Shown here piece by piece: positions 27,008 through 32,003 of a stretch of DNA of 64,000 nt. Location: positions 1,488,001 through 1,552,000 of the forward strand of contig NZ_JAFBCT010000001.1 in assembly GCF_016907835.1 (NCBI RefSeq), written 5' to 3'. The DNA is from Agromyces cerinus (lineage in GTDB: Bacteria; Actinomycetota; Actinomycetes; Actinomycetales; Microbacteriaceae). The stretch's first letter is position 1; each line of letters opens with the position of its first letter. Below the pieces are notes generated by a model, which did not search any database, was not told the DNA's origin, and saw only the letters and a program-made list of their open reading frames with translations. Position numbers and translations under genes: made by a program.

Positions 27008-27709
27008 TCAGCGAAGCGACATGACCGCTGCGCCGGCGAAGGGACCTGGATGGACTCGTCGGAGAGTTCGACCTCGATCAGCACCCACGAAGCGAACCGT
27101 GTCCGACACGGCAGCAGTGAGCAGGGCGACGAGATGTTCATCGGGATCCGCGACGCACGCCCGCGCGATCCCATCGACGGCGCTGGTCGCGAGAGCGGAG
27201 CACTGCCGCACCGTCATGCCGGGGCGGCCCGGACCGACCTCCTCGATGAACCGTGCGGCCCAGGCGTCGGCGGCGGGGGCGGCGCGGAGGGCAGCCTTGC
27301 CCAGTTCGCGCAATTCCGCGGCGGGATCGTCGTCTCGATCCGCGAGGACCCTGAGGGCGACTCGCAGCCCCACCGCCAGCGAACGCTGACGTTCCTCGGC
27401 GGCGATGGGCAAGGCGGCACTGGCAGCTCGTACGGCGAGCAGCACGTCGAGCAGCGGGTCATCGCTCGTCAGGCCGATGACCGTCGGGATGAGCGGCGTG
27501 AGCCGGGCGCGGCCGGCCTCGCTCGTCCGGTCGTTCACCATCCGCGCAAGAAGCGCGAGCGTGCGGTGCGTGCAGGCGGGATGGTCGCTCCAACGCTCCC
27601 CCGCGAGGTACGACGCGAATTCCATGAAGCACGCCCCGCGCCGTGGGGAGAAGTGCCGGCCCGGGGACAGGATCGGCATGACATCCGGCTGAGCCGTCCA
27701 GTCGCGCAT
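27008..27709 (-). CDS. Conserved hypothetical protein, full-length copy
   Basis: The product is a 233-residue soluble, Ala/Arg/Leu-rich, mostly helical protein that I do not recognise. The N-terminus MRDWTAQPDVMPILSPGRHF is followed by ACFMEFASYLAGERWSDHP; the middle has many helices (ALLARMVNDRTSEAGR, LLDVLLAVRAASAALP). No transmembrane segment, metal motif or P-loop is seen. ATG 27709 has GAGGGGG upstream. A second, internally deleted copy of the gene with the same 5' flank lies at 28509-28622, on the other side of the DHFR-like gene, which suggests a duplication in this region. Confidence 0.7.
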   Translation of the reverse strand: MRDWTAQPDVMPILSPGRHFSPRRGACFMEFASYLAGERWSDHPACTHRTLALLARMVNDRTSEAGRARLTPLIPTVIGLTSDDPLLDVLLAVRAASAALPIAAEERQRSLAVGLRVALRVLADRDDDPAAELRELGKAALRAAPAADAWAARFIEEVGPGRPGMTVRQCSALATSAVDGIARACVADPDEHLVALLTAAVSDTVRFVGADRGRTLRRVHPGPFAGAAVMSLR

Positions 27710-27779
27710 GAGACCCCCTCTGTCTCCTTCCACTGTGCGCCTGCCGCGGCCGCGATTCAAGTACCTCGCCCGGATGTCC
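27629..27779 (-). repeat. Duplicated segment, copy A (5' end of gene and its upstream region)
   Basis: These 151 bp match 28542-28691 at roughly nine positions in ten by eye. They cover the first 26-27 codons of the 233-aa gene and about 70 bp of upstream sequence, including the purine-rich RBS and a GATTCAAGTA segment. The upstream part presumably contains the promoter. Confidence 0.8.
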
Positions 27780-28480: not shown

Positions 28481-28508
28481 AGGGTTCTCCGATCTGGACG
28501 TGCGCGGA

Positions 28509-28622
28509 TCAGCTCAGCGAAGCTGAGACGACCGCATAATCGCACGCCCCACGCCGTGGGGAGAAGTGCCGGCCCGGGGACAGGATCGGCATGACATCCG
28601 GCTGAGTCATCCAGTCGCGCAT
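28509..28622 (-). pseudogene. Internally deleted copy of the 27008-27709 gene (37 codons)
   Basis: Starting with ATG at 28622 this frame encodes 37 residues. Residues 1-27 match the N-terminus of the 233-aa neighbour almost exactly (MRDWxxQPDVMPILSPG, then RHFSPRRGAC). The frame then jumps to a tail AVVSASLS resembling that protein's last residues AVMSLR. Flanking bases 28506-28534 also resemble 27001-27028. It therefore looks like the full gene with about 600 bp removed from the inside. Whether the 37-aa peptide is still made is unknown; the start and a purine-rich RBS region are kept. Confidence 0.6.
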
Positions 28623-28691
28623 AGGCGCCCTCCCTCTCCTTCCACTGTGCGCCTGCCACGGTCACGATTCAAGTATCTCGGCTGGATGTCC
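28542..28691 (-). repeat. Duplicated segment, copy B
   Basis: This is the partner of 27629-27779. The match includes the first 26-27 codons and about 70 bp upstream and ends near the same CTGGATGTCC/CGGATGTCC position in both. The remaining bases to 28863 contain no gene I can support. Confidence 0.8.
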
Positions 28692-28863
28692 GGACAAACC
28701 GACCGATCCTGGCTTCGCGGGCGGCAGCGTCCTCCGAGAACGCGGTCACCAACCCCGAATCGGACACCAGCGCATGCTTCTGGGCCTGCGGACGCCGCAA
28801 TGATGGTCGACATCGAACTGCCGCTGGACCCGCTGGGGGTCGAGGCGTCATCGACGGGATGAA

Positions 28864-29931
28864 CTATTGGCCACCCATCGACGGAATACTGTTCGGGTTC
28901 GAAGCAGCCGACCGGCCCACCAACAGGTTCGCCTCCGTCCCAGGGCCTGCGCGGCGCTCCAGGGCTTCGATGACGGTCTCGGCGATGTCGATGTCGTAGA
29001 GCCTCTCGATGCTCTGGAACCCGCCGGGACTCTCCGCGTTGATCTCCACCACGTGACCGCCGATCACGTCGATGCCCACGAGGAACATGCCATCGGCGAC
29101 GAGCTTGTCGCCCATCGCCTCGACGATGCCGAGCTCGGCCTCACCGACCTCGAGGGGCACCGACCGACCGCCGGTGCTGATGTTGGCGCGCGGGTCGTTA
29201 CCGCTGGGCACGCGTCGGAAGGCGGCCGGCCGGCCGTCGCGCTCGAGGATGCGGCCCTCCAGCAAGAAGATCCGGGCATCGCCGTCCTCGGCGCCGTCGA
29301 CGAACTCCTGGATGATGGCGTACCCGTCCTGCAGGACGGCCTCCGTCATCTGAGCGAGGTTGGTCTCCCCCGGGCCCTCGATCATGAAGACGTTGCGGCC
29401 CTTGGCCCCGTACAGCGGTTTGACGACGCAATGGCCGACGTCGTCGACGAACCGCTCGATCGCCTCCTTGTTTCGTGTCACCAGCGACCGAGGTCGGACG
29501 TTCTCGGAGAACTCCTCCAGGTAGAGCTTGCTGGTCGCCCGATGGAGGGTGTTCGGGTCGTTGACCACCGTCACACCTCGGTCCGCGAGCATCTGTCCGA
29601 ACACCACGCCCATCGGGCTGGCCCACGGGCGCTCCTGCAGGTCGTCGATCGACTCGTTGCGCAGGACGAGCGCATCGAGGTCGTCCATGACGATCCGCTC
29701 GGCGTCGCGCGCCTTGATCCTCTCCATGAAGCTCGCGAGAGTGTCGTCGCTCTTCCATCTCGCGGCGCGAGCCATGGCCGCGAACAGCCCGTCGCTGCTG
29801 CCGAGCTCGAGATCCCCGACGCCGACATACCAGGTCTCGTGCCCGCCCCTGGCCGCGGCCCGTGCAAGTCGGGTGGTCGTGTACTCGTCCACCTCGGTGG
29901 CGACATCGTTGACGAGAAATGCGAGCCTCAT
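28864..29931 (-). CDS. ATP-grasp ligase, glutathione-synthetase (GshB)-like
   Basis: The product has 355 residues with the GshB/RimK-type ATP-grasp fold. A pre-ATP-grasp domain (residues 1-125; MRLAFLVNDVATEVDEYTTT and DPNTLHRATSK) is followed by the nucleotide-binding K171 in CVVKPLYGAKG, QEFVDGAEDGDARIF and FRRVPSGNDPRANISTGG, close to the GshB R-x-P-x-x-G-x-x-R-x-N-x-x-x-GG pattern. The metal/substrate strand GIDVIGGHVVEINAESPGGF (287-306) ends the catalytic core. Such enzymes join a carboxylate to an amine with ATP. Actinobacteria normally make mycothiol, so glutathione synthesis is unlikely here. Its ATG overlaps the stop of the DUF1704 gene by 4 nt (ATGA), implying coupled expression. 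Confidence 0.88.
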   Translation of the reverse strand: MRLAFLVNDVATEVDEYTTTRLARAAARGGHETWYVGVGDLELGSSDGLFAAMARAARWKSDDTLASFMERIKARDAERIVMDDLDALVLRNESIDDLQERPWASPMGVVFGQMLADRGVTVVNDPNTLHRATSKLYLEEFSENVRPRSLVTRNKEAIERFVDDVGHCVVKPLYGAKGRNVFMIEGPGETNLAQMTEAVLQDGYAIIQEFVDGAEDGDARIFLLEGRILERDGRPAAFRRVPSGNDPRANISTGGRSVPLEVGEAELGIVEAMGDKLVADGMFLVGIDVIGGHVVEINAESPGGFQSIERLYDIDIAETVIEALERRAGPGTEANLLVGRSAASNPNSIPSMGGQ

Positions 29932-31166
29932 GCTGCCCTGTCTCCTTCGTAGAGGTCGGTGACAGTCGCGCCCGCGCGCAGCCTCTCCAGACGCTCTTGT
30001 GCACCGGGCACGTCCAACCAGCGTGGCCGAACCCACGGGGCGTGGAGCACCTCGCGGTCGAGCAGATCCTGCACCAAGGGGATGTGGTCCAATGCGAGCT
30101 TGCCGACGAGCAGGACGTCGAGCCGGCTGCCCTCGGCGAGAGCGTCGAGGATGCGCGTGATCCCGCGCAGGTAGATCGCGTCCTTCACCGATCCGCCCCC
30201 GACGACGACCCGGATGGCGATGGACCACGCGGTACGCGCCGGTATGCGATGGGCGGCCCGCAGCAACTCGAAGATGTCCAGGAAGCCGGCGCCGTCGAGC
30301 ATCTCGCCGACCGCGACCACTCGCGCCGCGAGCACGCGTAGCCGCCGCGGGTCCAACCCGCCGGTCAGGTACTCGGCGAGCACGGCGAGGCCTTCCTGCG
30401 TCTCGTCGTAGCCGGGCAGGCCGATGGTCAGCAGCGTCAGTGGCTGCCGGGCACCGTTCTGATAGGTGACCACGTGGGTGCCGACCTCGTGGTGCAGCAG
30501 CGGCTCGACCCGGTCGGCCCTGAAAGCGGCGGACGCAGGGATGAGCAGGCGGCCGAACGACACCATCAGCTCGGAGACGTCGTCTCGCACCTCGACGCTG
30601 ACCGGGAAGTCCGGATACACGGCACGGTAGCGCTCGAACTCCGCCCGGGCCTCGTCGGCGAACGCCCCGGCGGTGACGGTCTGGGTGCTGGGCGCCTGCG
30701 GGGGGATGGTCTCGAGCAGCTCCTGCGCCGCCGCGGCCAGCGGAGGGGCCACCGTTCCGTAGAGCTGGAGTGACCCGTAGAGGAACCGTGACGTGTCGCG
30801 GTCCTCCAACGCGGTGATCTGACGGGCGATCTCGTCCCTCTTCGCCCGGAAGAGCGTGTGCAGCGCCGGGTCATCCACATTCTCGACCTCGAGGTCGTAC
30901 AGGTCGCGCTGCAGCAGGTCCGGGTCGAAGTCCAACGGCCGCAGCCGCAGCGTGGGGGCCGTGCCGAAGTCACTGCGTTCGAAGTCCGCCCACGCCTCCG
31001 CCGCATTGAGTGGCGTGACGTTGACGAGCAGGTTCACACGGCGCTCGATCTCGGTGAGCCGGGCGTCGATGTCGAGTGCGGGCGCCAGCTCCTCCGTCGG
31101 TGACGACCGCTCGCGGGCAGGCTCGTCCTCGGGCGGGCCAGGATCGCCAGGGCGAGCGTCACTCAT
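29928..31166 (-). CDS. DUF1704 / QEGLA-motif putative metallocarboxypeptidase
   Basis: The product has 412 residues. It shows the hallmark zinc motif HEVGTH (HExxxH, residues 226-231) followed by the family motif QEGLAVLAEYL (257-267), the features that define DUF1704, named 'flavohemoglobin expression-modulating QEGLA motif protein' in databases. The eukaryotic members (MATCAP) are metallopeptidases that remove the C-terminal tyrosine of tubulin; bacterial substrates are unknown. The N-terminal 30 residues are acidic and disordered-looking. Both neighbours overlap it: the small upstream ORF by 8 nt (ATGAGTGA, 31159-31166) and the ATP-grasp gene downstream by 4 nt. No signal peptide, so it is cytosolic. 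Confidence 0.88.
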   Translation of the reverse strand: MSDARPGDPGPPEDEPARERSSPTEELAPALDIDARLTEIERRVNLLVNVTPLNAAEAWADFERSDFGTAPTLRLRPLDFDPDLLQRDLYDLEVENVDDPALHTLFRAKRDEIARQITALEDRDTSRFLYGSLQLYGTVAPPLAAAAQELLETIPPQAPSTQTVTAGAFADEARAEFERYRAVYPDFPVSVEVRDDVSELMVSFGRLLIPASAAFRADRVEPLLHHEVGTHVVTYQNGARQPLTLLTIGLPGYDETQEGLAVLAEYLTGGLDPRRLRVLAARVVAVGEMLDGAGFLDIFELLRAAHRIPARTAWSIAIRVVVGGGSVKDAIYLRGITRILDALAEGSRLDVLLVGKLALDHIPLVQDLLDREVLHAPWVRPRWLDVPGAQERLERLRAGATVTDLYEGDRAA

Positions 31167-31338
31167 CGTCGTCCCCGGGGCTCTGGGTCCCACCCGACGC
31201 AGTATCGATCCCGACGGTCTCGTCTTCGATCTGGGTCTCCGCAGGAAGGGTGACGTCGTCGCTCGACCCGCGACGGTCATCGCTCTTCCCACCTGAGTCG
31301 TCAGCCGTCCGCGACGGGGTGATCTCCGGATCGGACAT
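31159..31338 (-). CDS. 59-aa acidic small protein, first gene of DUF1704/ATP-grasp operon
   Basis: The product has 59 residues, rich in Asp, Ser, Thr and Gly, with no hydrophobic segment, and is predicted disordered. It begins MSDPEITPSRTADDSGG and ends SGGTQSPGDDDE, a highly acidic C-terminus. ATG 31338 has a good RBS (GGAG, 5-nt spacer), and the stop overlaps the next start as ATGAGTGA, so a real translated gene is likely. I know of no family for it. Position before a carboxypeptidase-like and a ligase-like enzyme makes it a candidate substrate or carrier peptide (inference). An alternative is a simple leader that sets translation of the operon. Open frame continues 22 codons upstream without a better RBS. 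Confidence 0.6.
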   Translation of the reverse strand: MSDPEITPSRTADDSGGKSDDRRGSSDDVTLPAETQIEDETVGIDTASGGTQSPGDDDE

Positions 31339-31504
31339 GGTGGCTCCGTTCACTCGATGATCAGACCGTATGCGTGCCGCCGTCGCGGCGTCGAGGCCTT
31401 GCATGCTGGCACGGAGTGCACTATGCGTAGGTGAACGATGTCGAAGTACTCACGGCGCCAGCAGCGGGGGTACGCCGCAGCGATGTGAGATCAGCTGGAC
31501 CCGG

Positions 31505-31696
31505 CTAGATTGCCGTAGTGGGTCCGAGTTCAGTTGACGAACTCACGGATGGGCCGAACAAGAACTCCCACTCACTGGTTACTCGGCCAGCGCGTAGCTC
31601 GAAGATCTCGACGGACACCGCGCCTTGATCATCAATGAGTTCGACGAGCACCCGCCCATCGTCGGATTGTCTGAACCGCTCGGCTCGCGCCTCGCG
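31505..31696 (-). pseudogene. Fragment of a possible SnoaL/NTF2-like protein
   Basis: An open stretch of 63 codons between stops has protein-like character, including DDGRVLVELIDDQGAVSVEI and FELRAGRVTSEWEFLFGP. This resembles the last two beta-strands of SnoaL-like domains, but there is no start codon in a good place and the N-terminal half is missing. The identification is tentative. Confidence 0.3.
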
Positions 31697-32003
31697 CTAA
31701 CGAGAAGCGGACACCGAGGGATACGTGACGAATCGCAATAGGCCCCCGGGTGAGAAGCCGGAAGCCAGAAGCAGATTCCGAGGTTCCGCGCCCGTGATCA
31801 GGATGCCGTTATGTCAGCCTCGGCGAGGCGAGAGCCGCAACCCGAGAAGAGGACCCCTGGAGGAGCCGTGCGCTGTGGCTGGTACCCGGAGCGTTTGTAG
31901 CTGTGGGAGTTCTCACCGGCTGGAGCTGTGGTCATCGACGATTACCTTCGCGTGGACGTCCCGATTGGGATCGAGTATGAGGCAGCCCAGTGTGCTGGCG
32001 GGC

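Follow-up and report, generated by a model that had tools for sequence, protein, structure and literature searches.

A coupled and conserved pair of MATCAP-type peptidase and GshB-like ATP-grasp ligase genes in Agromyces and other bacteria

According to passages of PMC10499314 (2023), the MATCAP/TMCP enzymes are carboxypeptidases and deglutamylases that trim protein tails, and human MATCAP acts on tubulin and includes a tubulin-binding part. No substrate is reported for the bacterial DUF1704/MATCAP proteins in the literature searched. Tubulin tyrosine ligase (TTL) is an ATP-grasp enzyme that adds at a C-terminus; TTL and TTLL modify tubulin, and RimK modifies S6. The locus described here would share the chemistry of the TTL/tyrosine carboxypeptidase cycle, ATP-grasp addition versus metallocarboxypeptidase removal at a C-terminus. 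However, its ligase belongs to a different ATP-grasp family and the locus contains no conserved tubulin-tail-like peptide. No TTL family model is found among the Pfam matches of the ligase at E-values up to 1, so that the parallel with tubulin tyrosine ligase is one of chemistry and not of close kinship.

The locus lies in an Agromyces genome searched as a single contig of 3.98 Mb, within the window (the whole stretch of DNA analysed, 64,000 nucleotides). It comprises three genes:

31338–31159, minus strand: gene of a 59-aa acidic small protein, no Pfam match
31166–29928, minus strand: DUF1704/MATCAP-type metallocarboxypeptidase of 412 aa, PF08014 (E 6.8e-94), HEVGTH and QEGLA motifs
29931–28864, minus strand: GshB-like ATP-grasp ligase of 355 aa, PF02955 GSH-S_ATP (E 1.7e-43) and PF02951

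The original prediction had described a minus-strand trio linked by stop-start overlaps, with intact HEVGTH and QEGLA motifs in the DUF1704 protein. Both motifs are present, and the coordinates and both overlaps are confirmed by the ORF listing of the window: the 59-aa ORF and the peptidase gene share ATGAGTGA (31166–31159), and the peptidase and ligase genes share ATGA (29931–29928). A longer form of the peptidase, starting at a GTG at 31292, was rejected because a stop codon interrupts that frame in A. cerinus; we therefore prefer the ATG at 31166 as the start. Neither a sigma-70 promoter nor a terminator was detected in 28500–31900. A RibD_C-like gene is located immediately downstream of the pair. 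Direct repeats of roughly 150 bases that have diverged from each other (27629-27779 and 28542-28691) flank it on either side, and the second copy duplicates the beginning of the ORF at 27781-27008.

The association of the two enzyme genes extends well beyond the window. A contig scan with the peptidase yielded 31 loci (L004–L034), of which 30 (L004–L033) form the clade of the window. The pairing of DUF1704 and ATP-grasp genes that had been predicted from the window holds in the relatives: the ligase gene is directly downstream of the peptidase gene in 31/31 loci, which is more than chance, and, except in L022, L026 and L027, the overlap in the window-clade loci is of exactly 4 bases (27/30). 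Clustering of the ORFs of the 30 clade loci and the window gave a peptidase cluster covering 30/31 loci, a ligase cluster covering 28/31 and a cluster of ORFs antisense to the peptidase gene covering 22/31, the next-largest clusters covering just 3 loci each. Since both genes are found in all loci by locus comparison, the absent members of the peptidase and ligase clusters were probably lost to the composition filter. No other neighbour gene widely common to the clade loci was identified by this clustering, some of the loci ending at contig ends. At larger scale, PF08014 is present in 12/296 genomes of the phylum and in 3/150 genomes of the family of the window. Scores above 300 bits with the ligase subfamily model NF009110 occur in 7 of the 296 phylum genomes (the next best match reaches 89 bits), and all seven adjoin PF08014, sharing its contig and strand. 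The pair is real and widespread.

Outside the clade of the window the pair has a further partner. A gene of the FGase family (PF05013) lies beside it in all 22 non-clade pair loci examined (13 from rhizobial plasmids, Photobacterium L059, Acidobacteria L034 and 7 other genomes, of which G020 and G129 belong to the window's own family). The plasmid loci come from 15 regions chosen among 124 matching records, the fifteenth being Pseudoalteromonas L060, described below; in L064 the FGase match is split, its two parts lying about 1.9 kb from each other. In the Photobacterium locus a single 665-aa protein carries both the FGase and the MATCAP domain, fused together, and the ligase gene immediately precedes its gene. 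The rhizobial triads (FGase, QEGLA protein, glutathione synthetase) share with the window the peptidase, the ligase and their order, with 37-43% identity for the peptidase and 40-44% for the ligase. They differ by the FGase gene itself and, in several cases, by an additional N-terminal region on the peptidase, neither of which is seen in the window clade: FGase gives no tblastn match in 30/30 window-clade loci, and PF05013 has no match in the window's own genome, nor in any of 5 further clade genomes searched.

Some DUF1704 genes have neither partner. Eight of them (L073, L076, L077, L078, L080, L086, L087 and L088) form a lone group, encoding divergent peptidases (25–39% identity); neither a ligase nor an FGase was matched in the stretches fetched around them, and in two genomes (G311 and G343) the locus is close to the contig start. 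This set represents 5 of the 12 phylum genomes carrying PF08014; among 119 genomes around Acidobacteria G442, PF08014 is present in 5, of which 3 belong to the set. Both partners are also missing in Pseudoalteromonas L060. Taken together, the lone peptidases and the Pseudoalteromonas locus indicate that, in divergent branches at least, the peptidase can function on its own. The Pseudoalteromonas gene (L060:3332-4612) adjoins a gene with a redoxin domain and a TonB receptor gene. In a tree of 43 peptidases, in which several deep forks are unresolved, the FGase-less set falls on a single branch (100/99) and seven of the eight lone peptidases on another (100/99). The eighth, L078, has a very long branch, and L081, L059 and L082 are also on long branches.

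The window peptidase matches the PF08014 model with 315.3 bits, for a Pfam gathering cut-off of 27, and scores under the cut-off of the QEGLA equivalog TIGR02421 (308.3 vs 338.65 bits). The HExxxH and QE catalytic motifs show no variation in the rows aligned; H226, E227, H231, Q257 and E258 are invariant in the 15-row alignment. Human MATCAP/TMCP1 (KIAA0895L; PDB 7z5g, 7z5h and 7z6s) shares the HExxxH motif with its downstream Glu ligand and, by family name, PF08014. It is a tubulin enzyme, however, whereas the window peptidase is bacterial and its gene is coupled to a ligase gene. A 15-row profile of ligase-linked peptidases retrieves human KIAA0895L (7z5g) with an E-value of 1.3e-15, and a smaller profile of 6 rows retrieves human MATCAP with 3.5e-12. 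A lone-peptidase profile, also of 6 rows, retrieves no related protein at E-values up to 1, a single lone peptidase used as query has no related match at E-values up to 10, and the window peptidase used alone retrieves nothing from the PDB at 0.001. Judged by these searches, it is the ligase-linked branch that resembles human MATCAP. However, several proteins of the lone group reach 361 to 415 bits with the Pfam MATCAP model, against 315 for the window protein, which argues against the ligase-linked branch being nearer to human MATCAP.

The ligase is a GshB-like ATP-grasp protein. Its PF02951 (GSH-S_N) match has an E-value of 3.8e-07, and it matches the structure of E. coli GshB (1gsa) with an E-value of 2.5e-32, both domains and the catalytic residues being found. 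D288, E296 and N298 are invariant and align with D273, E281 and N283 of E. coli GshB, which are presumably its metal ligands. The window ligase differs by insertions, by an SPGG motif where E. coli GshB has SPTC, and by scores under the cut-offs of the glutathione synthase equivalogs TIGR01380 (187.2 vs 299.05 bits) and NF003573 (192.3 vs 272). Its best NCBIfam score is with the PRK12458 subfamily NF009110 (335.8 bits), yet this is under the cut-off of 408. The GshB domains, the names given to the ligase in the annotated rhizobial records (glutathione synthase or synthetase) and two GCS2-family matches in the window's own genome would fit plain glutathione or thiol metabolism, in which glutathione would be made by the ligase, as its synthase, and degraded by the peptidase. 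With both equivalog cut-offs missed by wide margins, SPTC replaced by SPGG, and an actinobacterial host in a group that mostly uses mycothiol, we consider this unlikely.

We favour a different reading, to which we assign a probability of about one half: the pair would build and trim a short glutamyl-type peptide, the ligase adding residues at its C-terminus and the peptidase removing them. At the expense of ATP, the GshB-like ATP-grasp enzyme would ligate an amino acid onto the carboxylate of a short peptide or a peptide-like tail, and the MATCAP-type metallocarboxypeptidase would take C-terminal residues off the same compound. With these opposite actions the pair might set the length of the compound or salvage it, and outside the clade of the window the FGase-family hydrolase would take part in the same pathway. 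The likeliest substrate would be a glutamyl-type peptide, small and soluble, that is akin to glutathione but distinct from it. Against this, the two GCS2-family enzymes of the window's genome make a glutathione-like pathway possible there. Linkage alone is no proof of opposite reactions on one compound, and this mechanism draws on family chemistry, from which we infer the common substrate and its nature. The linkage, the fusion and the MATCAP match support the idea of a ligase acting with a carboxypeptidase and make it worth testing.

The same enzymes could instead edit the tail of a protein, the ligase adding residues such as Glu to a protein C-terminus or side chain and the MATCAP-type enzyme removing them. 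The ligase does match the RimK family (PF08443, E 2.4e-13, the RimK-type model TIGR00768 remaining under its cut-off), the profiles of ligase-linked peptidases reach human MATCAP, and MATCAP/TMCP enzymes trim and deglutamylate protein tails according to passages of PMC10499314. However, the best score of the ligase is with a GshB-like family of small-molecule ligases, and the clade loci do not share a third gene widely enough to suggest a target, which could nevertheless be encoded elsewhere. The FGase family suggests small N-acyl amino acids or peptides as substrates, and such a partner would point away from a protein. Protein-tail editing therefore appears somewhat unlikely, and a small glutamyl-type peptide is preferred as the compound on which the pair would act.

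The original prediction had gone further, proposing that the pair may add and remove residues at the end of the 59-aa peptide, to be checked by whether a small ORF with an acidic C-terminus is always upstream. The gene itself is not a chance ORF, a possibility rejected on both its substitution pattern and its database relatives. Its dN/dS is 0.25 in the comparison with A. cerinus and 0.41 in that with strain S2-1-8, with 1.25 and 1.28 for the other two frames (window/S2-1-8 pair alone), and the protein database contains 23 matches of 52–74 aa, namely the window's own protein and 22 relatives with 71–90% identity, one of them from A. cerinus. The product is a real acidic peptide, its gene overlaps the peptidase gene, and the predicted GDDDE end exists: the C-terminal DDE is almost constant in the 24 aligned rows. 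However, the final codons, GAT GAG (or GAA) TGA, contain the ATG of the peptidase, and this overlap explains part of the conservation of the DDE end.

The distribution of the small gene is narrow, all the genomes in which it was observed being Agromyces. Among the 15 Agromyces genomes bearing DUF1704 (60 genomes searched), 3 have the small ORF at the DUF1704 locus, and in a further 76 fetched loci, which include duplicates, it lies beside the pair twice, both times in Agromyces; in L009 it ends 158 bases before the start of the peptidase match. In the family sample of 150 genomes the small-protein profile hits two genomes, both of Agromyces and both already in the profile. Weak relatives (42–48% identity, E-values 5.6e-5 to 5.1e-4 for sequences of biased composition) occur in 7 further Agromyces genomes and have in common an MSDxEITPS start or an ETVxADTASGG stretch. 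Five of these genomes are without DUF1704 and the other two (G595 and G600) carry it on a different contig; one relative (L100) ends in DE and the remainder in DPA, GDD, ERT or AGR. This small acidic family (LPEE...ETVxADTASGGAPEP) is scattered in Agromyces (L096-L102) in mostly different neighbourhoods, although two pairs among the seven loci have a common one. In L102 (3163-4800) the small acidic sequence forms an in-frame extension of an ORF that appears peptidase-like by eye.

These data support a conserved coupled unit composed of the MATCAP-type peptidase and the ATP-grasp ligase, of which the small peptide is not part. What stands of the proposed add/remove cycle is its enzymes, with a conserved pair and a profile match to MATCAP, and not the peptide as their target, homologous loci being without the small ORF, an outcome that the original prediction had named as refuting the cycle; we regard a cycle acting on the 59-aa peptide as very improbable. 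From its distribution, the 59-aa protein is probably a local Agromyces addition and not the target of the pair. Its gene would be a recent Agromyces-specific upstream gene whose translation, we infer, is coupled to that of the peptidase by the overlap. The purifying selection on the gene at this locus makes a functional link with the pair possible in that lineage.

The region upstream of the pair contains a candidate control element. Of the 21 clade loci from outside Agromyces, 8 of them Kribbella, 15 have a GGGTA[CT] box before the conserved start, and as first found 14 of these boxes are at position −18 to −21; shuffled sequences of all 37 loci give a mean of 1.05 and a maximum of 4. In L015, L019 and L024 an in-frame stop separates the box from the start, so the box is non-coding there. 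A suitably spaced GTT −35-like element accompanies GGGTA[CTA] in just 6/21 loci (shuffle mean 0.12). Passages of PMC8346170 give SigB-type promoters as GTTTAA-N12-14-GGG(A/T)A(A/T) in B. subtilis and, for example, GTTTGC-N14-GGGTAC in Streptomyces, and the box resembles a sigma-B −10 element, with which it fits. The exact box is found in 0/16 Agromyces-like loci including the window (one of them labelled Cellulomonas); in the window, L008 and L009 the small gene and a longer N-terminal part of the peptidase occupy its position. A QEGLA protein shows a 27.5-fold change in the low-salinity transcriptome of Photobacterium damselae, according to passages of PMC10308900. The SigB-like boxes and this transcriptome make a stress role of the pair plausible. 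Upstream of the rhizobial FGase, GGAAC-N16/17-GTT sites, which resemble the sigma-EcfG consensus, occur in 2/12 loci within 120 bases and 4/12 within 400 (shuffle means 0.06 and 0.14; L064 was excluded because its FGase start is off the stretch). Two triads have such a site shortly before the FGase gene (L049:4417 and L053:4344). General sigma-EcfG control of the rhizobial triads was rejected, the sites being suggestive for a few of them.

We found no description of a peptidase–ligase(–FGase) module in a partial literature search, and make no claim that it is unpublished; passages of PMC4431377 mention neither a peptidase nor formylglutamate. The human MATCAP relatives were only recently described as tubulin carboxypeptidases (passages of PMC10499314, 2023). 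With the ligase partner, the FGase partner and the fusion, the bacterial peptidase becomes part of a two- or three-enzyme pathway that can be tested, and knowing that the small peptide is not conserved avoids effort on a wrong substrate. A broader and improbable scenario would make the ligase, the MATCAP-type carboxypeptidase and, in most branches seen, the FGase a bacterial tail-editing kit under a general-stress sigma factor, which would edit glutamyl-type residues on peptide or protein C-termini as a counterpart of the eukaryotic tubulin-tail editors and possibly, for MATCAP, as their source. The pair could in this way bear on the origin of the eukaryotic tail-trimming enzyme.
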